Positions 12,988 through 21,684 of a DNA stretch of 64,000 bases are shown here, one piece after another. Below the pieces are notes generated by a model. It saw only the letters and a program-made list of their open reading frames with translations, had not been told where the DNA came from and did no database searches. The translations under genes and the position numbers were made by a program. Source of the DNA: Neobacillus cucumis (GTDB lineage: Bacteria; Bacillota; Bacilli; Bacillales_B; DSM-18226); NCBI RefSeq assembly GCF_023715505.1, contig NZ_JAMBOH010000012.1, positions 62,001 to 126,000 on the forward strand, written 5' to 3'. Every line of letters starts with the position of its first letter. The first letter of the stretch is position 1.

Positions 12988-13013
12988 TTAAAAGGCTCCC
13001 CAAGATGGGAAGC
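12988..13013 (-). terminator. Terminator of arsI
   Basis: On the minus strand GCTTCCC (13013-13007) pairs with GGGGAGC (13001-12995) with one G-U, followed by TTTTAAT. Confidence 0.7.
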
Positions 13014-13019
13014 TCGTTA

Positions 13020-13448
13020 TTATTTATTAATTTCTATCTTGGACTGTGTTGTTGCACAGCATGTGGATTGTGTAGCTATTGTCTCTACATCACCTTTTGT
13101 GTAGAAGAACTCCCACTCGTTTCCGTCTGGGTCGGTTACCCAAAATTTATCTTGAGGAGCATAGCAGCAGGTAACATCCATTTCTTCTCTTGCAAAGAAG
13201 CCTAATTTTTCTAAACGATCTTTATGTTGTAAGACCTCTTCTTGATTTTCTACTTGAAAGCCAAAATGTCCAACCTGGTTTCCAGAAACTTCATTTTTTA
13301 AGTTTAAAGTGAAATTAAGGCCAGGATCATCAAGTAAAAACTTAGCATAATCTGGCTTTACTTTTATTGGCTGAGAATTAAATACTCTAGCGTAAAATTC
13401 AATGGACTTTTCTAAATCGGTAACATTTACGCCAACATGCATTTTCAT
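13020..13448 (-). CDS. arsI: ArsI/CadI family dioxygenase (C-As lyase)
   Basis: 142 aa from the ATG at 13448, which has AAGGAG 9 nt upstream. Vicinal-oxygen-chelate fold. Fe(II) ligand candidates are His4 (MKMHVG), His61 (GHFGF) and Glu113 (EWEFFY), and the vicinal Cys pair Cys94-Cys95 sits in VTCCYAP, the arsenical-binding signature of ArsI. A Cys-containing C-terminal tail (STCCATTQS) is also present. ArsI cleaves the carbon-arsenic bond of trivalent organoarsenicals such as methylarsenite. It is divergent from arsR1 and shares ArsR-type operators with it, so arsenic control is expected. CadI, a cadmium-induced relative, is the alternative name. Confidence 0.88.
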   Translation of the reverse strand: MKMHVGVNVTDLEKSIEFYARVFNSQPIKVKPDYAKFLLDDPGLNFTLNLKNEVSGNQVGHFGFQVENQEEVLQHKDRLEKLGFFAREEMDVTCCYAPQDKFWVTDPDGNEWEFFYTKGDVETIATQSTCCATTQSKIEINK

Positions 13449-13479
13449 TATTAACAGCTCCTTCATGATTATTCTGACC

Positions 13480-13503
13480 ATAAATCAATTATTTTTGATT
13501 TAT
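13480..13503. promoter_or_regulatory. ArsR-type operator O1
   Basis: Perfect inverted repeat ATAAATCAA (13480-13488) - N6 - TTGATTTAT (13495-13503), 32 bp upstream of the arsI start. It lies downstream of the arsI promoter, where a bound repressor would block elongation. Confidence 0.75.
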
Positions 13504-13510
13504 TGTTTTT

Positions 13511-13532
13511 TAAATCAACTTTTCTGGATTTA
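13511..13532. promoter_or_regulatory. ArsR-type operator O2
   Basis: TAAATCAA (13511-13518) - N6 - TGGATTTA (13525-13532): the same repeat as O1 with one mismatch. Confidence 0.6.
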
Positions 13533-13539
13533 TAGTTAC

Positions 13540-13568
13540 AGTATATTTGTAATTTTTTTCAATTACAA
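13540..13568 (-). promoter_or_regulatory. Sigma-A promoter of arsI
   Basis: On the minus strand TTGTAA (13568-13563), 17-nt spacer, TATACT (13545-13540). O1 and O2 lie immediately downstream. Confidence 0.55.
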
Positions 13569-13575
13569 TCCCTTT

Positions 13576-13591
13576 ATCAAATAAATTTGAT
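13576..13591. promoter_or_regulatory. ArsR-type operator O3
   Basis: ATCAA (13576-13580) - N6 - TTGAT (13587-13591), just upstream of the arsI -35 box. Confidence 0.6.
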
Positions 13592-13646
13592 TTTTTATTT
13601 GTCCCATTTTAACTCCTCAGAAAATACAATATAATAAAATATAAAT

Positions 13647-13670
13647 TTAAATCAACTTTTTTTGATTTAA
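13647..13670. promoter_or_regulatory. ArsR-type operator O4
   Basis: Perfect inverted repeat TTAAATCAA (13647-13655) - N6 - TTGATTTAA (13662-13670), 4 bp before the -35 box of arsR1. Confidence 0.75.
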
Positions 13671-13674
13671 TCAG

Positions 13675-13703
13675 TTGACACATGTGAATTTTGGATATAT
13701 TAT
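13675..13703 (+). promoter_or_regulatory. Sigma-A promoter of the arsR1 operon
   Basis: TTGACA (13675-13680), 17-nt spacer, TATTAT (13698-13703). It reads into arsR1 at 13746. Confidence 0.75.
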
Positions 13704-13745
13704 GAGTGTATCAAGATTATTTGATTTATGAAGCAGGTGATAAAG

Positions 13746-14072
13746 ATGAAAGAAGAAATTAAATTACAAGATGTATCCTTAGATAAAGTGTTTGAGAAAT
13801 ATGAACTAAAATTTAAAGCTATTGCAGATAAAAAGAGACTTCAAATCATGAATATTTTAACTCAAAATGGTTCTATGTGTGTGTGCGATCTGGCTCCCAT
13901 GATGGATATGGCTCAATCAAAATTATCTTATCATTTAAAGATTTTATTAGATGCCAACATTATCAAAAAAGAAACAAAAGGCACCTGGAGCTATTATGAA
14001 CTTAATCAAGATGAACTTAATCATTTATTGTCCTATGAACTTTGCTGTATCTTTAAACCAACTGGTTGCTAA
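13746..14072 (+). CDS. arsR: ArsR/SmtB family arsenical repressor 1
   Basis: 108 aa from the ATG at 13746, with AGGTGA 5 nt upstream (an earlier ATG at 13728 overlaps no ribosome site). Winged-helix ArsR fold. ADKKRLQIMNILTQNG leads into CVCDLAPMMDMAQSKLSYHLKIL, where the Cys-Val-Cys at the start of the recognition region is the classic As(III) thiolate site. The C-terminus ends CCIFKPTGC, giving more possible thiol ligands. Operators of the type ATCAA-N6-TTGAT flank both its own promoter and arsI. Its three Cys clusters suggest sensing of trivalent, possibly methylated, arsenic. Confidence 0.88.
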   Translation: MKEEIKLQDVSLDKVFEKYELKFKAIADKKRLQIMNILTQNGSMCVCDLAPMMDMAQSKLSYHLKILLDANIIKKETKGTWSYYELNQDELNHLLSYELCCIFKPTGC

Positions 14073-14082
14073 TTTTTTGATC

Positions 14083-14124
14083 TTAAATCATTTTTTTTTG
14101 ATTAATATATCAACATAATTTGAT
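14083..14124. promoter_or_regulatory. Two further ArsR-type sites after arsR1 (O5, O6)
   Basis: A weak site TTAAATCA/TGATTAAT (14083-14106) and a clean ATCAA (14109-14113) - N6 - TTGAT (14120-14124) stand between arsR1 and the 66-aa ORF. They would allow separate control of the downstream ORFs. Confidence 0.5.
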
Positions 14125-14141
14125 TAATAGGGGGATTGAAC

Positions 14142-14336
14142 ATGTTTAATGAGTTTGAAGTATATCAATTAATAAAATTACTCCAAGAGGAAGTAGAAAG
14201 AATAGCTCAAAACGAAAACGCTTGGAAATTAGAGCGGTTGAAAAAGGAATCCTTTATTCAAATAGTAGCAAAGAAATTAAAATTAAAACCTAAATTAACT
14301 ATCGTAAAAACTAATGGCAATGGTGTGTGCTGTTAA
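14142..14336 (+). CDS. Small hypothetical protein with C-terminal Cys-Cys
   Basis: 64 aa from the ATG at 14142, with AGGGGG 7 nt upstream. Amphipathic helical N-terminal half (VYQLIKLLQEEVERIAQ), a Lys-rich middle, and a terminal NGNGVCC. No family recognised. It follows arsR1 and two ArsR-type sites, so arsenic-induced expression is likely. The terminal Cys pair could bind As(III), as in small arsenic chaperones, but that is inference only. Confidence 0.6.
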   Translation: MFNEFEVYQLIKLLQEEVERIAQNENAWKLERLKKESFIQIVAKKLKLKPKLTIVKTNGNGVCC

Positions 14337-14367
14337 TTAAGCACCTCGTCTGTAGGAGGCTGTTAAT

Positions 14368-14574
14368 TTGACCGTTAATCATGCCAGCACCTTAAAAAAA
14401 GAGTATTTTCTTTCTTATATAAATTTAGTAATGATTTCTCGAAATTGTTCCTTGCAACAGGCTAAAGAATTAACAATAGAACTGTTTTTCAAAAACAACT
14501 CCGAACAATATGGTAAACAAACTTACGAACGATTTATTGAAGCTTTTAAGCAATTAAGCAAGACTGAAAATTAG
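14368..14574 (+). CDS. Small hypothetical protein in the arsR1 operon
   Basis: 68 aa, TTG start with TAGGAGG 8 nt upstream, which is convincing. Predicted helical protein with one Cys (RNCSLQQAKELTIELF). No family recognised. The short gap from the preceding ORF and the shared terminator at 14612 place it last in the arsR1 operon. Confidence 0.55.
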   Translation: MTVNHASTLKKEYFLSYINLVMISRNCSLQQAKELTIELFFKNNSEQYGKQTYERFIEAFKQLSKTEN

Positions 14575-14611
14575 CCCTGTTTCATGGCATTAATTAATAT
14601 GTACCAATAAT

Positions 14612-14652
14612 GGGAAGTTCGTTTTAAGAAACAAACTTCCCTCCATTTTTTC
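14612..14652 (+). terminator. Terminator of the arsR1 operon
   Basis: GGGAAGTT (14612-14619) pairs with AACTTCCC (14634-14641) with further pairing inside, then TCCATTTTTT. Confidence 0.75.
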
Positions 14653-14655
14653 CCT

Positions 14656-14934
14656 TTAACAACAATTACTTTCATTACCTAATAACACGAGCCCATTGGC
14701 CTCTAGACTGAAATCAAGAGTAAGGTCTTCCGTATATGGCTCAATATCAGGATCGATTGCTACCGATACTTCATTAATAGTTACTACTTTATCCTTTTCA
14801 TCTGGCTCATCCAGAGCTAGTCCCACTTGTGGCTGTCCTCAGCCAAAGCCTGCAAAATAGACACGGATGTTTTTGGCATCGTGTTCTTGGAACAATTGCT
14901 TCAATATATCACGAGCTTGATCTGTAATATTCAT
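14656..14934 (-). CDS. HesB/IscA-like protein with in-frame UGA, probable selenoprotein
   Basis: 92 codons from the ATG at 14934 (AAGGTGA 7 nt upstream) to TAA at 14656, interrupted only by TGA at codon 32 (14841-14839). The protein reads RVYFAGFG-[UGA]-GQPQVGLALDEP ... VAIDPDIEPYTEDLTLDF ... GNESNCC. In related HesB-like proteins the UGA position is the conserved Cys of FAGFGCxGPxxGLALDE, and HesB-like proteins are a known bacterial selenoprotein family. The 60 codons after the UGA stay open and conserved. A hairpin downstream fits a bacterial SECIS. It lies between the two halves of the arsenic island. The alternative is a nonsense mutation of a Cys codon, or a sequencing error. Any Sec residue would be redox-active or metal-binding. 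Confidence 0.75.
14802..14820 (-). promoter_or_regulatory. SECIS-like hairpin downstream of the UGA
   Basis: On the minus-strand mRNA CUAGCUC (14820-14814), loop UGGAU, GAGCCAG (14808-14802). It has six pairs with one A-C mismatch. The loop G is the 27th nucleotide after the UGA, inside the range described for bacterial SECIS elements. The small loop with G fits SelB recognition, but the element has not been scored by a SECIS program. Confidence 0.5.
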
Positions 14935-15027
14935 TTGCCCATCACCTTTCAAAAAATTCACTTACTTATCTTACTTGGTTTATATCCATTTGCAAATCAA
15001 AAAGTTACTTGTATGTTTGATTTCTTT

Positions 15028-15456
15028 TTAAGCATTAGGATAAATCCGTTGTAACGCTTCTTTCATTTGAGGTTTTACATTAACTTTTGGACGGGCTGTC
15101 TTGGCTAATTTTTCAGCCTCATCAATTGTCTTCGCTTTACCTAATGACAATAGGGTTCCCACTGCAACAGTCCCCGCACGGGTGCTTCCGCCCCCACAAT
15201 GGAAATAAACTTTTTTCCCTTCATTATAGGCATTTACAACATGTTCAATCGATTTTTTGATTGATTCATCTTGATGTTCGGCATCATCAACGATTGGACT
15301 ATGAATTCGATCATACCCTGACTTGTTCTCATGTGACTCTGCGCGTAAATCAAATATCACATCAGCTTGTTCATGTTCCATCATATCTATTACATCATCT
15401 GCTCCGCCAAAATAAATACGGTCTTTAATTAATTCGTTATAGTTCTTTGTAGTCAT
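15028..15456 (-). CDS. Dual-specificity/tyrosine phosphatase-like protein
   Basis: 142 aa. The Cys-based phosphatase signature HCX5R appears as YFHCGGGSTRAGTVAVG. A possible general acid is in the loop HSPIVDDAEHQD, and FGGADDVIDMMEHEQADVIFDLRAE is typical of the compact DSP-like fold. Ribosome site AAGGGTGG 9 nt before the ATG. It is 39 nt downstream of arsA on the same strand, so it is probably last in the arsD-arsA unit. Cys-phosphatase folds can reduce arsenate (LMW-PTP-type ArsC), which makes an arsenic role conceivable; direct evidence is lacking. Confidence 0.75.
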   Translation of the reverse strand: MTTKNYNELIKDRIYFGGADDVIDMMEHEQADVIFDLRAESHENKSGYDRIHSPIVDDAEHQDESIKKSIEHVVNAYNEGKKVYFHCGGGSTRAGTVAVGTLLSLGKAKTIDEAEKLAKTARPKVNVKPQMKEALQRIYPNA

Positions 15457-15495
15457 GGTTTTATTCCACCCTTCAATCTAGTCACTTAGTAGGCA

Positions 15496-17262
15496 TTATA
15501 AAAAATTTTTTAACTGATCATATCCTCTATAATCTTCACTCATAAGAGGAACAATTGCACATCTTTTTGCAAATTCAGTAGTAACCTTTTGTATCCATCC
15601 TTCTTCTGCCTGTGCTCTGCCATTTAACACAGGATCTTTAGTTTCAGTTACATATAGACTTTGGTTGATTACCCACCATTTAGGAGTTATTTCAGCACGT
15701 TTTAAATCATCCTGTAATCGACTAGCTTCTAATACAGGGGTAGCTTCTGCTAACGTTACTATGACGACGCTTGTTTCTTTTGGATTCCTTAGCCGAGGCA
15801 GCAGTGTTTTCACGCTCTCAGGTATTTCCCCTGTTGAACGGACTAGTTCTTTATGATAAGACTGAGCGGCGTCTAAAAGGAGTAAGGTGTGGCCAGTTGG
15901 GGCCGTGTCAATCACAACAACTTCATCTTTTGATCGAGCTACTACCTCTGCAAAAGCACGAAATACGGCTATCTCTTCTGTACAAGGAGAGTTTAAGTCT
16001 TCTTCAATGTAGGCAAGTGCTTCATCATTCAGTTCATTGCTTACTTTTGATAAGACTTCTGCTTTGTATGCCGCTACTTCTTCAGTCGGATTAATACGGC
16101 TAATGGTTAATTGATTATTCATATCATTATTTGGAAACACAAACTCTAGATGCGCAGCTGGGTCCGTTGTGGTTAAATGTACTTTATGACCTTTTTCTAC
16201 TAATCCAACGGCGATTGCAGATGCCATTGTGGTCTTTCCAACACCACCCTTCGCCATGGTAAAAATCACTCTAATATTATTTAAGGAGAAGTCTTCAATC
16301 ACTTTATTTAAGCCAGGCAGGGATATAATCTTGCCTTCAGCCTCTGGTTCTGCAGCTGGCATTGTATACTGCTTAAAGAAGAACCGTAAGTTTTGAATAC
16401 CTGTTAAGGAATAAGAAACAAACGGCAACGAGTAAGTGACAACTTGCTTTAAATCGTTGGGCATTTGTTTTATGGCATTACGTTGTCGTTCATAAAAGGC
16501 AGATGAAACTTTATCGTCTGTCAGATAAGATTGCATTAACCCGTTAACAATGAGAGCTTGATTTGTAATACCAATTTCTTTTAATTCCTTAGATGCACGG
16601 TTTGCCTCAAGTAATGATGACTCATCAGGTCTTGCGACAAGAATGAGCGTTGTTTTTGTTGAGTCTGATAGTGCGTCCATTGAAACCGAATAAATTTGCT
16701 TCTTTTCAGATAACCCTGATAAAGGGCCTAAACAAGAGGCGCCATGGGTGTTCTCTTCTAAAAAGCCACTCCAAGCAGTTGGTAATTGGAGAAGTCGAAG
16801 AGTATGACCCGTAGGTGCCGTATCAAAGATTATATGCTCGTAAGCATTAACGACATTAGGATCTGCCAGTATATTTGTAAACTCATCGAATGCTGCAATT
16901 TCAACTGTACAAGCCCCTGATAATTGTTCTTCCATAGTAGCAACTACTGCATCAGGAAGTTTCCCGCGATAAGGCCCAACAATTCTATCGCGATATGCCC
17001 TTGCAGCTTCTTCAGGATCAAGATTACAAGCGTAAAGGTTTGGTACATTAGAAATTCCCACCGGAGTATTTGTTAACCCAACTTCTAATACATCCTGTAA
17101 GTTAGAGGCAGGGTCTGTACTGACAAGTAAGACTTTTTTTCCATCATCAGCCAATGCTACAGCGGTTGCACATGCAGTCGATGTCTTCCCTACTCCACCC
17201 TTTCCAGTGAAAAATAAAAACTTGGTGTTCACAATCATTTTTGGATGGAAAGACTGAAACAT
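15496..17262 (-). CDS. arsA: Arsenite-transporting ATPase ArsA
   Basis: 588 aa from the ATG at 17262 (MFQSFHPKM); an upstream in-frame GTG at 17271 is less likely. Two ATPase halves, each with a P-loop: FFTGKGGVGKTSTA at ~15-30 and TMAKGGVGKTTMA at ~330-345. The switch motifs DTAPTGHTLRLLQLP and [13 protein letters not shown] are present in both halves. As(III) ligand cysteines are in SGACTVEIAAFDEF and NSPCTEEIAVF, with another in HGASCLGPL. It is the soluble motor that takes As(III) from ArsD and couples ATP hydrolysis to an efflux pump. It follows arsD by 16 nt. Acr3 encoded upstream is the likely membrane partner. Confidence 0.95.
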   Translation of the reverse strand: MFQSFHPKMIVNTKFLFFTGKGGVGKTSTACATAVALADDGKKVLLVSTDPASNLQDVLEVGLTNTPVGISNVPNLYACNLDPEEAARAYRDRIVGPYRGKLPDAVVATMEEQLSGACTVEIAAFDEFTNILADPNVVNAYEHIIFDTAPTGHTLRLLQLPTAWSGFLEENTHGASCLGPLSGLSEKKQIYSVSMDALSDSTKTTLILVARPDESSLLEANRASKELKEIGITNQALIVNGLMQSYLTDDKVSSAFYERQRNAIKQMPNDLKQVVTYSLPFVSYSLTGIQNLRFFFKQYTMPAAEPEAEGKIISLPGLNKVIEDFSLNNIRVIFTMAKGGVGKTTMASAIAVGLVEKGHKVHLTTTDPAAHLEFVFPNNDMNNQLTISRINPTEEVAAYKAEVLSKVSNELNDEALAYIEEDLNSPCTEEIAVFRAFAEVVARSKDEVVVIDTAPTGHTLLLLDAAQSYHKELVRSTGEIPESVKTLLPRLRNPKETSVVIVTLAEATPVLEASRLQDDLKRAEITPKWWVINQSLYVTETKDPVLNGRAQAEEGWIQKVTTEFAKRCAIVPLMSEDYRGYDQLKNFL

Positions 17263-17278
17263 AATTTTCACTTCTTTC

Positions 17279-17644
17279 TTATTTCGATGGTTTTAAATCA
17301 ATTGTAAGACGTGGTTTTGATTTTTCGCTAAGTTCCTCAGCCTGTACTCCAAACCATTCAGCAAATTCATCGTTGGTTGGATAGGCTCCAATTTTTGCAA
17401 TTTCACCTTCAACTAAGGTTATAGGGAGTGAATCTGGCCCCTTTTCGTGAAGAACTTTGCTTACCTCTTTGTTCTCAACAAAAATGGCTGGTTCAAATCC
17501 AAGGTTATATCTTTTGATGTTGTATCCTTTTTTCTCTAATAGAAAGATAGCCGTTGCCACTCTTATTAACTCTGGATCTACACTTGGACCACATACACCT
17601 GTTGCACAGCACAATGCCGGATCGAAAATTTCAACTTTATTCAT
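17279..17644 (-). CDS. arsD: Arsenite metallochaperone ArsD
   Basis: 121 aa. The N-terminus carries the As(III)-binding Cys set FDPALCCATGVCGPSVDPEL (Cys12, Cys13, Cys18), required in the family for transfer of arsenite to ArsA. Thioredoxin-like fold; the C-terminal second Cys pair of some ArsD proteins is absent. Ribosome site TTAGGAGG before the ATG. Directly upstream lie an ArsR-type operator and a hairpin separating it from arsC, so arsD-arsA may be a second transcription unit. Confidence 0.93.
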   Translation of the reverse strand: MNKVEIFDPALCCATGVCGPSVDPELIRVATAIFLLEKKGYNIKRYNLGFEPAIFVENKEVSKVLHEKGPDSLPITLVEGEIAKIGAYPTNDEFAEWFGVQAEELSEKSKPRLTIDLKPSK

Positions 17645-17670
17645 TAATTAAACCTCCTAAAGGGTTTTAG

Positions 17671-17688
17671 TATAAGTATTTACTTATA
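17671..17688. promoter_or_regulatory. Internal ArsR2-type operator before arsD
   Basis: TATAAGTA (17671-17678) - TT - TACTTATA (17681-17688), a perfect inverted repeat, 27 bp upstream of arsD. It differs from the ATCAA-N6-TTGAT sites near arsR1. Confidence 0.65.
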
Positions 17689-17704
17689 TTATTCCTAAAG
17701 TTAA

Positions 17705-17730
17705 AGCCAAGAGTATTTTTACTCTTGGCT
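17705..17730 (-). terminator. Hairpin between arsC and arsD
   Basis: AGCCAAGAGTA/TACTCTTGGCT (11-bp stem, tetraloop), followed on the minus strand by TTTAACTTT. It is a weak terminator or attenuator ending arsR2-acr3-arsC. Confidence 0.6.
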
Positions 17731-17744
17731 ATTAAATTCATTTC

Positions 17745-18167
17745 TCATTCACCAGTTTCAGCAAAATGCTTAATGCGTTCTCCGATTTCGTCACGGACAC
17801 GTTGGAAGAATGCCCATTTTTCTTCGTCAGTTCCTTGAGCTTTTGCTGGGTCATCAAAGCCCCAGTGAACTCGTTTTACTCTAGGAGGAGTAACAGGGCA
17901 CTTATCGGCAGCGTCACCACATAATGTTACAACTAAATCGGCGTTGTTTAGATATTCAGGATTGATAATATCAGAAGTATGAGTTGAAATGTCGATACCA
18001 GCTTCTTTCATCGCTTTTACGGCATTTGGGTTTAATCCGTGTGCTTCAATCCCAGCACTGCGTACTTCCCAATCATCGCCTAAATGTTTCTTTGCCCAAC
18101 CTTCTGCCATTTGGCTTCTGCAAGAATTTCCTGTACATAGGAAGTAAAGTTTCTTTTTATTTTCCAT
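17745..18167 (-). CDS. arsC: Arsenate reductase, thioredoxin-coupled (LMW-PTP fold)
   Basis: 140 aa from the ATG at 18167, with AAAGGTGG 8 nt upstream (the earlier GTG at 18179 is inside that site). P-loop [16 protein letters not shown] with catalytic Cys10. The relay cysteines are in [16 protein letters not shown] (Cys82 and Cys89). This is the Bacillus/Staphylococcus pI258 type that reduces As(V) to As(III) using thioredoxin. Length matches the family (~139 aa). It lies 26 nt after acr3, so arsenite made here is exported by Acr3. Confidence 0.95.
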
Positions 18168-18193
18168 GTTGTATTCCACCTTTAATTATAAGA

Positions 18194-19249
18194 TTAGGCT
18201 GCATGCTCTTTAAAATATTTTCTTTTAAACCATAAAGCTACGTTAACTAACACAATCATTACAGGCACTTCTACAAGAGGTCCAATAACGGCTGCAAACG
18301 CAGCACCAGAATGGATTCCAAATACACCAACAGCCACAGCAATTGCTAATTCAAAGTTATTACTTCCAGCTGTAAAAGCAAGAGTTGTTGTAACAGGGTA
18401 GTCCGCTCCAATTTTCCTTCCCATAAAAAATGAAACAAAGAACATTATTACAAAGTAAATTAATAAAGGAATTGCTATACGAACTACGTGTAATGGTAAG
18501 CTTACAATAGCGTCCCCTTTTAATGAGAACATAAGGATAATCGTAAATAGTAAAGCAATTAATGTAATCGGACTAATTTTAGGAATAAACACCTTTTCAT
18601 ACCATTGTCTGCCTTTAGCCTTTACTAACGTAAACCTTGTAATCATACCAGCTATAAATGGTATTCCAAGATAGATGAAAACTGATTTAGCTACTTCTAT
18701 CATCGTAATATTGACAACTGCCCCTTGGATTCCTATCCATTCAGGGATGATCGTTACAAATACATACGCATAAACAGAGAAGAATAACATTTGGAAAATA
18801 GAGTTGAATGCTACTAAACCAGCAGCGTATTCCGTATCTCCTTTAGCAAGATCATTCCATACAATAACCATCGCAATACAACGAGCTAAACCAATCATAA
18901 TTAGACCAACCATATATTCTGGCTTATCAGGAAGAAAAATAATGGCTAATAAAAACATAAGAATTGGTCCAATGATCCAGTTTTGTACTAGTGATAAAAC
19001 TAAGACTTTTACATCTTTAAAGACCCTTCCAATCTCCTCATATCGGACTTTGGCGAGCGGAGGATACATCATTAAAATTAAGCCAATCGCAAGTGGAATC
19101 GATGTAGTGCCAACTTGCAATTTGTTCATGCCTTCTACAAAACCTGGAAAAATGAACCCCAATCCGATACCCACTGCCATAGCTAGAAATATCCATAGCG
19201 TTAGGTAACGATCTAAAAAAGATAGACGTTTCTTTTTTGTATTACTCAT
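18194..19249 (-). CDS. acr3: Arsenite efflux transporter Acr3
   Basis: 351 aa, ten predicted membrane segments, BASS/Acr3 family. [53 protein letters not shown] (with the conserved essential Cys) and [20 protein letters not shown] are family hallmarks. It exports As(III) using the proton gradient. GGGAGTGAG precedes the ATG. Second gene after arsR2. Often labelled arsB in Bacillus, although unrelated to the ArsB pump. Confidence 0.95.
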
Positions 19250-19276
19250 TTTCTCACTCCCAAACTATATGTGAAG

Positions 19277-19624
19277 CTAACATCCGCATTGAAGTGTCGG
19301 ATTCGCTTTTTCAATCATTTTGATTTTATCTGTCTGCGCTGGTACATGTTCCAAAATATCTTCTATAAGTCCATAAAGCTCACTTTCATGATTAAGGGAA
19401 TAATATACCCACTGACCTCTTCTTTCTTCTTTAACCATCCCTGCATCTTTTAATTTTCTAAGATGCTGGCTGATAGATGGTTGACTCATATCAAACACTT
19501 CAAGAAATTCGCATACACAGCACTCACGTTGCTTTAATATAGCAATAATGGTTAAGCGTGTTTTATCACCTAACATTTTTAAAACGTTAGCTGCGCTCTC
19601 TAATTGAACTATTGATTTCACCAA
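19277..19624 (-). CDS. arsR: ArsR family repressor 2
   Basis: About 115 aa. The start is uncertain: GTG at 19633 overlaps the ribosome site AAGGCGG, so TTG at 19624 or GTG at 19621 is more likely. Winged helix with LGDKTRLTIIAILKQRECCVCEFLEVFDMSQPSISQHL (written here as adjoining blocks: ECCVCEF is the As(III) Cys site, SQPSISQHLRKLKDAG the recognition helix). The C-terminus NPTLQCGC adds thiols. It is only distantly related to arsR1. The operators upstream are of the ATAAGTA type. It heads the acr3-arsC unit. Confidence 0.9.
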   Translation of the reverse strand: MVKSIVQLESAANVLKMLGDKTRLTIIAILKQRECCVCEFLEVFDMSQPSISQHLRKLKDAGMVKEERRGQWVYYSLNHESELYGLIEDILEHVPAQTDKIKMIEKANPTLQCGC

Positions 19625-19643
19625 AACGGACACCGCCTTAATT

Positions 19644-19663
19644 ACATAAGTAAATAATTATGT
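19644..19663. promoter_or_regulatory. ArsR2-type operator near the arsR2 start
   Basis: ACATAA (19644-19649) - N8 - TTATGT (19658-19663), with ATAAGTAAATAA inside, resembling the site before arsD. Confidence 0.5.
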
Positions 19664-19755
19664 TCTTATTTAAGTTCCAATTTATATAATAAATAATTTT
19701 TGTAGACTTTATAAATTTATGCTTACGTCTTGGATTTCTAATCTGATTAAAATCG

Positions 19756-19779
19756 ATATATAACTATTTGCTTATATAT
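19756..19779. promoter_or_regulatory. Distal ArsR2-type inverted repeat
   Basis: ATATATAA (19756-19763) - N8 - TTATATAT (19772-19779), about 130 bp upstream of arsR2. It is AT-only in the arms, so weakly supported. Confidence 0.35.
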
Positions 19780-19872
19780 TAAAACAATATGTAATTAGAT
19801 TCAAGTAATCTATTGTTAAGGTAGTGTATATAAAAATGATACATATTCTTAACTATCATTCATCATCTCTGT

Positions 19873-20238
19873 TTAAACCAACAGTTTGCCGATAATGCTC
19901 CCGACCCACGCAAAAATAATACCAAATATTACGGAAATGCTAACATAAAATACAGCGTTTTTAGTTTCCCTCTTTTGCATCATTTGAATAGCTTCGTATC
20001 CGAATGTAGAAAAGGTCGTATAGGCTCCAAGAAAACCAGTTCCACACAATAACCAAATCCATTCCGGAATTTCCTTATCTAGATGTAAAACAGCTAGAAA
20101 ACCAAGTACAAGCGAACCAGTAATATTAATGATAAAAGTACCAAATGGAAATGCAACAGATGTTTTGGCAGTGATCCATTTTCCTAGCTGAAATCGCATG
20201 ATGGCACCAAATATACCTCCAATACCTACAAATAACAT
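19873..20238 (-). CDS. crcB: Fluoride channel FluC/CrcB, second subunit
   Basis: 121 aa, four membrane helices. GGIFGAIMRFQLGKW, PFGTFIINITGSLVLGF and GFLGAYTTFSTFGYEA (the TTFSTF fluoride-track motif) are CrcB signatures. It overlaps the preceding crcB gene by one base (TAATG). Two adjacent, non-identical genes indicate a heterodimeric antiparallel channel. It expels cytoplasmic fluoride. Confidence 0.93.
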   Translation of the reverse strand: MLFVGIGGIFGAIMRFQLGKWITAKTSVAFPFGTFIINITGSLVLGFLAVLHLDKEIPEWIWLLCGTGFLGAYTTFSTFGYEAIQMMQKRETKNAVFYVSISVIFGIIFAWVGSIIGKLLV

Positions 20239-20633
20239 TATTTCTCTACTCCTCTCCTATGATTCTCAGACTGATATTCAGCTAGTTTAGCACCAATCAA
20301 CGCAAGTATAATTCCTCCTAAAATGCTTAAAACCACGTAGAGACAGGCCAGAATTATTTGATCATTTTTAATTAAATTCAATGTTTCAACAGAGAAGGTT
20401 GAAAAAGTAGTAAAGGCACCTGTAAAACCCGTTCCAATAGTTAATTTTAAATTCGGACTAATATTCGTTCGTTTTACTGTAATAGTAAAAAACCATGATA
20501 AAAATAGACCCCCCAATAGGTTAATGACCAAGGTTCCTAATGGAAATCCCGAGGGTGCAGGTATTTCTTTTCCGATCAAATAACGCAAAAGGGCCCCAAA
20601 AAAGCCACCAACCCCAACAGCTAATACATTCAT
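20238..20633 (-). CDS. crcB: Fluoride channel FluC/CrcB, first subunit
   Basis: 131 aa, four membrane helices. GGFFGALLRYLIGKE, PLGTLVINLLGGLFLSW and GFTGAFTTFSTFSVETL match the family, with the TTFSTF motif intact. The charged C-terminal tail (SENHRRGVEK) differs from the partner, consistent with opposite topology. AAGGGG lies before the ATG. Expression is controlled by the fluoride riboswitch upstream. Confidence 0.93.
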   Translation of the reverse strand: MNVLAVGVGGFFGALLRYLIGKEIPAPSGFPLGTLVINLLGGLFLSWFFTITVKRTNISPNLKLTIGTGFTGAFTTFSTFSVETLNLIKNDQIILACLYVVLSILGGIILALIGAKLAEYQSENHRRGVEK

Positions 20634-20659
20634 TTAAACGACCCCTTATATAATTTTCC

Positions 20660-20712
20660 TTGAAAATAAAACAGACTCCTACCAGTAATAAGTATAAACA
20701 CTGGTAGGAGTC
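20660..20712 (-). terminator. Expression-platform terminator of the fluoride riboswitch
   Basis: On the minus strand GACTCCTACCAGT (20712-20700) pairs with ACTGGTAGGAGTC (20686-20674), followed by TGTTTTATTTT. The 5' arm overlaps the 3' part of the aptamer, so the two folds exclude each other. Confidence 0.85.
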
Positions 20713-20755
20713 ATTAGTCATACAGACAGTTTATGGCGAACTCCATCGCCTATTT
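20700..20755 (-). ncRNA. Fluoride riboswitch (crcB motif) aptamer
   Basis: The minus-strand RNA has GGCGAUGGAGUUCGCCAUAA (20750-20731) followed by ACUGUCUGUAUGACUAAUG and ACUCCUACC, which agrees with the crcB-motif consensus from memory. Fluoride binding would stabilise the pseudoknot and stop terminator formation, turning on the two crcB genes. Confidence 0.88.
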
Positions 20756-20766
20756 GAATATGGATA

Positions 20767-20795
20767 ATTATATAAGAAAAAACTTTTAAAGGCAA
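20767..20795 (-). promoter_or_regulatory. Sigma-A promoter of the fluoride operon
   Basis: On the minus strand TTGCCT (20795-20790), 17-nt spacer, TATAAT (20772-20767). Transcription would begin just before the aptamer. Confidence 0.7.
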
Positions 20796-20850
20796 CTTAA
20801 ACCAATCTATGTGTTTTGTGATGATTTCCCTTTACAATTTTGGCCAATGA

Positions 20851-21684
20851 TTATCGATTTGAAAATGTTTGCATATAATCGAATGAATAATTTGCCATTG
20901 TTTGAACATCACTGTATTTTGCCCTTTTATCCGTCTTCATGACCACAGAGATGACTTCCTTATTGTCCTTTTTTAAATATTCGACTAGCGTGTGCTGTGC
21001 CGCATCGGTAAATCCAGGTTTACCAGCAATAGCGTTCGGCATGGTGTGAAGTAGATTATGAATTGTTTTTTCTTGCATGCTAGTTTTAATATGTGTTGTT
21101 TGTGTAGACAAGACCTTCAGTACGTTAGGATGCGCAATCGCCTCTCTTGTGATGAGGGCCATGTCATATGGAGTGGTGTAATGATTTGGATGATGAAGAC
21201 CATTAGGTGTAACAAAATGGGTGTTTTTTAGATTCAATTGTTTCACTTTGTGATTCATCAGATCTGCAAATCCCTCTTCGCTGTCGGCCACGTTTTCAGC
21301 AATCGTAACCGCCACATCATTAGCACTTAATAACAATAATGCTTTCATTGCGTCTAGTTTGGAAATCTTCTCTCCTGCTGTAAGCCCCAAACAAAGGCAC
21401 TCTTGATCTGCAGCATTTCGGCTAACCGTTAATAATTCTCCATCTTTTATTTGTTCATCTAAAATAGTGGCTGTTAGCACTTTAGTCATACTTGCAGGAT
21501 ACGCTTTTGAATATGCATTTTTATTATAAAGAATTTCCCCTGTTAAAGCATTTATGGCGACTCCGAACGATCCGACAATTTGTGGAGGTTCTGTCTCCGC
21601 TGTACTAACCTTAACTGATGACATTCCAGACATTAGTAAAAGGACTAAGAATGTTGCTGTAAAGAGCTTGCAGATGTTTGTCAT
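20851..21684 (-). CDS. D-alanyl-D-alanine carboxypeptidase, S11 family
   Basis: 277 aa with an N-terminal signal sequence (FLVLLLMSGMSSVKVSTAE). The penicillin-binding motifs are SMTK in YPASMTKVLTA (SxxK), SAN in LLLLSANDVAV (SxN) and KPG in IAGKPGFTDAA, where KTG is more usual. The enzyme trims the terminal D-Ala of peptidoglycan stem peptides outside the membrane. The protein lacks the long C-terminal anchor domain of DacA and DacF, so it may be a soluble or sporulation-type variant. GGAGGTG precedes the ATG. Confidence 0.85.
   Translation of the reverse strand: MTNICKLFTATFLVLLLMSGMSSVKVSTAETEPPQIVGSFGVAINALTGEILYNKNAYSKAYPASMTKVLTATILDEQIKDGELLTVSRNAADQECLCLGLTAGEKISKLDAMKALLLLSANDVAVTIAENVADSEEGFADLMNHKVKQLNLKNTHFVTPNGLHHPNHYTTPYDMALITREAIAHPNVLKVLSTQTTHIKTSMQEKTIHNLLHTMPNAIAGKPGFTDAAQHTLVEYLKKDNKEVISVVMKTDKRAKYSDVQTMANYSFDYMQTFSNR

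Follow-up and report, generated by a model that had tools for sequence, protein, structure and literature searches.

HesB-like selenoproteins had been described by 2006 (PMC1794560) and feature in recent reviews (PMC13188914, PMC9312934), the first of which gives their motif as UxGP; the selenoprotein-rich hosts in PMC1794560 are mostly anaerobes, and Desulfitobacterium offers a selenocysteine (Sec) to cysteine conversion that left a structure resembling a selenocysteine insertion sequence (SECIS). A HesB-like gene also occurs in arsenic resistance: orf7 of the Bacillus sp. CDB3 ars1 operon, arsRYCDATorf7orf8 (PMC4562236, PMC5481582). All these papers are represented here by excerpts, in which the first mentions neither Bacillus nor arsenic and the last two do not mention selenium. 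Here we describe hesB-U, the terminal gene of an ars operon in a 64,000-nucleotide stretch of Neobacillus cucumis (contig NZ_JAMBOH010000012.1; hereafter the window). Judged from sequence, its in-frame UGA at codon 32 is very probably read as Sec through a SECIS-like hairpin over codons 39-44, its product being a member of the ars operon.

hesB-U shares with the HesB-like selenoproteins, which the sequence-only reading of this DNA had rightly named as a described family, both the fold family and the placing of Sec at the equivalent cysteine. However, the product scores 51.5 bits against TIGR01911 (HesB_rel_seleno; cut-off 66.35) and 48.5 bits against NF038090 (IscA_HesB_Se; cut-off 85), and since it lies under both curated cut-offs we call it a relative rather than a member. 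All 28 members of group A2 match TIGR01911 (E up to 1e-5, best 5.1e-17), the score having been set against the cut-off for the first only. Instead of UxGP the product reads UGQP; among 96 distinct Sec sequences, the second residue after Sec is Gly in 41 and the third is Pro in 95. It is also far below the equivalog cut-offs of the A-type carriers IscA, SufA and ErpA (PF01521), from which it differs by Sec in place of one ligand cysteine and by its ars-operon context. Its tail ends in CC, where A-type carriers have CGC.

CDB3 ars1 resembles the window, by description rather than by sequence, in holding a HesB-like gene together with arsC, arsD, arsA, a dual-specificity-phosphatase (DSP) gene and an arsC-arsD hairpin, but there orf7 (HesB) precedes orf8 (DSP), whereas in the window the DSP gene comes before HesB. 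Other arsenic-related selenoproteins, an arsenite methyltransferase and an arsenate reductase-like protein (PMC13188914, Table 1), are linked to arsenic chemistry by name but belong to other protein families. A literature search, which did not take in Bhat 2011 and Zheng 2013, found no account in which a Sec-containing HesB is a regular part of ars operons and alternates there with a Cys form. The sequence-only reading had thought the Sec-arsenic link undescribed: the link is real and wide, but because CDB3 ars1 has the HesB-like orf7 it was not wholly without precedent. What is new is the Sec form as ars-operon member, a variant on the described selenoproteins and the published orf7.

Rereading of the minus strand gave the same frame as that earlier reading, which had noted a strong ribosome site and a single break: from an ATG at 14934 the gene runs through TGA at codon 32 and stays open as far as TAA at 14656, encoding 92 residues and a stop. 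The product passes the Pfam gathering cut-off of PF01521 (Fe-S_biosyn, the HesB/IscA fold) with 36.9 bits against 26.3, and profile alignment places Sec32 on a conserved cysteine of IscA.

The nearest kin of the window are Neobacillus, with 83% DNA identity at one chromosomal gene. Relatives were drawn from two samples. Scanning a single genome for each species gave 49 loci in 47 genomes; the second sample comprised plasmid loci and 100 stretches (40 open-frame, 60 UGA) from 397 sampled genomes of the order, in which the best 131 of 205 genomes with a HesB match were classified (E up to 3.1e-21). Four open-frame places were skipped (G473:C1, G211:C11, G119:C18, and G043, already in as L045). 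The resulting 154 stretches count two ars-linked places twice (L131 = L040, L133 = L047). Including the window there were 155 genes, reduced to 150 distinct rows by dropping the frameshifted L043 and L046 and the identical L021, L131 and L133; for L044, the better of two neighbouring copies was taken.

Across these 150 rows, codon 32 is UGA in 105, Cys in 39, Glu or Asp in 6 and TGG in none. The 49 one-per-species loci comprise 46 with TGA, one with TGT (Halobacillus, L045) and two frameshifted, and beyond the UGA all 46 remain open for 59-66 codons. In 53 ungapped Sec genes, picked by length, differences at first, second and third codon positions are 0.282, 0.108 and 0.443 before the UGA and 0.328, 0.22 and 0.571 over codons 45-92; the part after the UGA thus changes in the manner of a sequence that is translated. 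A quick tree requires at least 6 changes of state at codon 32 and groups the Cys genes L106 and L108 with UGA genes in ars-linked clades, although many of its forks are open because the alignment is short. This alignment of Cys and Sec homologues, which the sequence-only reading had called for, shows its Cys motif FAGFGCxGP to be approximate only, Cys rows reading for example FAGFGCGEP, FAGQGCGAP or GCCGP. All 105 Sec rows retain at least one C-terminal cysteine, as do 38 of the 39 Cys rows, but the 6 acidic rows have none. The acidic rows (L091-L094, L110, L111) form a clade that has thus lost its C-terminal cysteines too and lies in ars operons in which ArsA was not found. Separately, in Bacillus sp. 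DNRA2 (L044, about 7900 and 10001) there are two HesB genes with a UGA, separated by about 2.1 kb.

The state of codon 32 follows the Sec machinery. Because selA is too common within Neobacillus (60 of 61 genomes), its association was tested across the order sample, where it scored over cut-off in 92 of 93 UGA genomes versus 2 of 38 open-frame genomes among the best 131 of 205 (Fisher P 1e-28, uncorrected for kinship); the 38 take in the six Glu/Asp genomes but not G125, in which both forms occur. Of the 47 genomes carrying the 49 loci, 46 have SelB and tRNA-Sec above cut-off. For selD, looked for in 10 genomes, 9 score above cut-off, with a single in-frame TGA in the selD gene itself; the exception in both cases is the Halobacillus, which has Cys. 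These distributions support the view that Sec and Cys forms replace each other largely according to the machinery of the genome, the Cys version appearing mostly in related bacteria without it and often at the same operon place.

Bacterial SECIS elements have a G among the first two loop bases and a loop 16-37 nt from the UGA. In hesB-U the loop UGGAU begins 26 nt past the UGA, with G at +27 and +28, in line with the position of +27 claimed earlier. The case for the hairpin lies with the family, not with the stability of the window copy. Seven stem pairs form in 72 of the 96 distinct Sec sequences, six in 20 and five in 4, and bases 19-37 after the UGA read CUGGCUC-UGGAU-GAGCC(A/G)G with few changes. 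The hairpin codons are frozen in Sec genes (Ala GCT in 83 of 84, Leu CTG in 94 of 96, Glu GAG in 89 of 90, as compared to 24%, 11% and 19% elsewhere in the same genes), whilst this freeze is absent from the 44 distinct Cys and acidic sequences, of which only 18-61% form any given one of the seven pairs. Stem pairing in Sec genes reaches 95.8% versus 19.6-47.5% for slid versions, and none of 1000 within-column shuffles matched either the observed pairing or its 25 double changes; the shuffle mean is high (90.8%) because the columns are very uneven. Residues 40 and 44 change together in the 105 Sec rows (Ala+Pro in 90, Ser+Ala in 13 spread over more than one clade, single swaps in 2), and Ser+Pro occurs in 16 of 39 Cys rows. 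Passing from Ala+Pro to Ser+Ala turns a G-C pair into a U-G pair, and because the double change keeps the stem pair, the coupling is explained by RNA.

The window operon runs ArsR-Acr3-ArsC-ArsD-ArsA-phosphatase with hesB-U last, 93 nt downstream of the DSP gene on the same strand, so that strand, spacing and neighbourhood all place it in the operon; the arsenic island proposed from the letters alone stands, with Acr3, ArsC, ArsD, ArsA and ArsI each above a curated NCBIfam cut-off. Among relatives, neighbours were called by comparison with the window's ars proteins and the ArsB and thioredoxin reductase (TrxB) of L084, over the 7.5 kb upstream of HesB and on its own strand. A gene for ArsA, ArsB, ArsC, ArsD or Acr3 precedes HesB in 90 of the 154 stretches; the tally is 35 of 49 for genome loci, 5 of 5 for plasmid loci, 27 of 40 for open-frame loci and 23 of 60 for the further UGA loci. 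ArsA is over cut-off in 18 of 61 Neobacillus genomes, and in all 18 a HesB match lies within 1.6 kb on the same strand (15 UGA, 2 without internal stop, 1 broken and weak). Plasmids of Priestia and Sporosarcina carry Cys forms at the same operon place, and one directly follows ArsA on a Stenotrophomonas plasmid. Nearby ArsA is also lacking from 9 Sec and 3 Cys ars-linked rows, which nevertheless retain their Sec or Cys. As a separate matter, two contigs labelled Pseudomonas sp. ISL-84 (L017, L037) carry Bacillaceae-like ars operons with a UGA HesB, probably from a misnamed or mixed assembly.

Several observations weigh against Sec decoding or against its tie to arsenic. Genome G470 (L164) has a UGA HesB in an ars operon, yet searches for selA, selB and tRNA-Sec gave nothing above cut-off. 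Because a stretch of about 10 kb holds all three in its relative G258, a single deletion or assembly gap might account for this, and the gene could be a stranded selenoprotein gene, a recent loss or the product of such a gap. Conversely, at least four selA-positive genomes (G102, G218, G051, G066) have copies lacking an internal stop, and neither tRNA genes nor an Rfam tRNA-Sec match were found within the 64-kb window. An Rfam search of the window returned a fluoride riboswitch only, whether Rfam includes a bacterial SECIS not having been checked. The window hairpin has an A.C mismatch at one of seven stem pairs and is not distinctive in folding: over 23 nt z is -1.67, with 14 of 200 shuffles folding equally well, and over 52 nt z is +0.55, with 139 of 200 equal and another register preferred. 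The C-terminal tail of the product is modelled at a pLDDT of about 59, and the joint loss of cysteines in the six Glu/Asp rows counts as one event because they form one clade. Finally, an upstream ars gene was not found in 64 of 154 stretches, including 49 of the 105 distinct Sec rows; of these 49, L008 retains the DSP neighbour, and L038 and L139 have less than 2 kb of upstream DNA. We therefore rejected an arsenic-only role, and the Sec site must be wider than arsenic. Neighbours of the non-ars Sec rows, seen in clusters and in 12 inspected loci, are lineage-specific genes without a common theme; UGA paralogues of this kind, with no ars genes found upstream, include L140, L142, L144, L161, L165, L169, L171 and others.

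Could the UGA be something other than Sec? If it were a true stop, the gene would be a decayed pseudogene, or only a 31-residue head or 56-residue tail would be made. This agrees with the failure to find Sec machinery in G470, with the existence of broken copies (L043, L046, G067) and with the databases, in which 43 of 63 matches are only 52-56 residues long (the six examined all start past the UGA). However, the frame that stays open in 46 of 46 UGA genes, the protein-type constraint on both sides of the codon and hairpin codons frozen in UGA genes only make this highly improbable, and we reject decay for the family, though not for G470, L043, L046 and G067. Reading as Trp, or by general suppression, is harder still to credit, to the point of being negligible. 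It draws on W at the UGA position in 20 of 20 full-length database proteins (P0002-P0021), but P0012 is identical to L011 except for this W and the DNA of L011 reads TGA, so its W comes from the translation code; the others probably arose likewise, where genes on short contigs were called under genetic code 4, one having been checked against DNA. Moreover, none of the 150 rows has TGG, though one scan pattern named W there, UGA tracks selA and is replaced by Cys mostly where selA is missing, and 4 of 37 picked window genes end in TGA. We rejected Trp on the absence of TGG and the origin of the one checkable W. The Sec reading proposed from the sequence alone is thus supported by codon 32 in relatives, the co-occurrence of SelA, SelB and tRNA-Sec, hairpin constraint and Cys swaps. 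Its expectation that standard annotation would miss the gene was borne out by the short and W-bearing entries and by the Cytobacillus plasmid records, whose incomplete gene table has no feature beneath the match in 5 of 5; the JGI label on two database relatives is 'HesB-like selenoprotein'.

What the protein does is less certain. IscA uses three cysteines as ligands at equivalent places, and trivalent arsenic, As(III), favours three-ligand sites such as that of ArsD. Sec32 and Cys91-Cys92 may form one such soft site, for As(III) or for an iron-sulfur (Fe-S) cluster. In the mechanism that we consider most likely, if with well short of full confidence, this site would bind As(III) beside ArsD and ArsA, as a scavenger or relay, or would keep it off Fe-S carriers; Sec would be preferred as the stronger, more nucleophilic ligand, re-reduced by the operon's TrxB where present. 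We favour this because As(III) likes such sites and ArsD and ArsA are the neighbours. On that basis HesB-U could, tentatively, be a dedicated arsenic-handling selenoprotein that sets Sec-Cys-Cys on an IscA scaffold, forms an As-Se bond and works with ArsD and ArsA.

Two other functions would leave Sec decoding as it is and compete over mechanism only. The same Sec protein may instead, with only slightly lower probability, be an A-type carrier that holds a transient Fe-S cluster and repairs or supplies clusters hit by arsenic stress, without binding arsenic. Among solved structures its fold is closest to those of IscA (1x0g among them, which contains a 2Fe-2S cluster) and SufA, copies without ars genes retain the identical Sec...CC pattern, and exposure to DMA raises hesB and other genes of Fe-S assembly about twofold in strain HTCC7211, according to excerpts of PMC6426599 (Table 1); but this carrier role by itself leaves the 18 of 18 adjacency to ArsA in Neobacillus unexplained and gives no reason for Sec as a cluster ligand. 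We consider it unlikely that Sec32 instead attacks substrate in a small thiol/selenol reductase that, with TrxB and the phosphatase-like protein, acts on arsenate, methylarsenicals or As-thiol adducts. Exchange of Sec and Cys at a single position would suit such chemistry, as would the upstream TrxB seen at 9 of the 49 genome loci and at 3 of the 5 on plasmids. Yet TrxB is found in only 12 of 154 stretches and does not adjoin hesB-U in the window, and the product has neither CxxU nor UxxC and an IscA-like rather than thioredoxin-like fold.

Table 1 Features of the ars region of the window, in the order of the forward strand
Feature	Position	Strand	Remarks
ArsI/CadI-family VOC enzyme	13020..13481	-	NF041414 166.7 bits, cut-off 116
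Second ArsR/SmtB-family regulator	13728..14072	+	Convergent with hesB-U
Terminator-like hairpin 3' of hesB-U	14612..14641	-	Consensus match only; 7 such sites in 13000-20900 vs 5.4 expected in shuffles
hesB-U, predicted 92-aa HesB/IscA-fold selenoprotein gene	14656..14934	-	Terminal gene of ars operon
C-terminal Cys91-Cys92 and stop codon of hesB-U	14656..14664	-	
SECIS-like hairpin	14802..14820	-	Stem CUAGCUC/GAGCCAG, loop UGGAU, loop G at +27/+28 after UGA
In-frame UGA, codon 32 (probable Sec)	14839..14841	-	Context FAGFG-U-GQPQVGLALDEP
Ribosome-binding site GAAAGGTGAT	14941..14950	-	Upstream of hesB-U ATG; good match
Dual-specificity-phosphatase-like gene	15028..15456	-	PF00782
ArsA arsenical pump-driving ATPase	15496..17271	-	TIGR04291 847.6 bits, cut-off 650
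ArsD arsenite metallochaperone	17279..17644	-	NF033727 131.4 bits, cut-off 90
arsC-arsD intergenic hairpin	17705..17730	-	Resembles one reported in CDB3 ars1
ArsC thioredoxin-type arsenate reductase	17745..18179	-	TIGR02691 236 bits, cut-off 174.3
Acr3 arsenite efflux transporter	18194..19249	-	TIGR00832 475 bits, cut-off 282.8
ArsR/SmtB-family regulator	19277..19633	-	Operon head

A strong hairpin 3' of arsC is present in the window and in 9 of 11 loci inspected (L001, L004, L021, L023, L031, L042, L080, L095, L148); that of CDB3 is reported, in the excerpts of PMC4562236, to damp expression of the full ars1 operon. Downstream of the island the minus strand encodes a DUF255 protein (Thioredox_DsbH, PF03190; 10577-12655). 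The fluoride riboswitch (20698-20759, minus strand, 57.1 bits) lies upstream of open reading frames 20633-20238 and 20238-19873, whose sequences resemble CrcB fluoride exporters.

Taken together, these results would connect selenium with arsenic resistance among common Bacillaceae of the soil, by a link that is wide and testable. The Sec/Cys pair within otherwise similar operons amounts to a natural experiment on what selenium contributes to a metalloid site, and the freezing of the LALDEP/LSLDEA codons shows cleanly how an RNA hairpin can dictate protein sequence. As annotation often drops or truncates the gene, surveys of ars operons may run one gene short. If HesB-U does handle arsenic as proposed, it would be a metalloid chaperone whose Sec binds metal instead of catalysing redox chemistry; Bacillaceae that decode Sec would have kept this form, and loss of that trait would have brought conversion to Cys.
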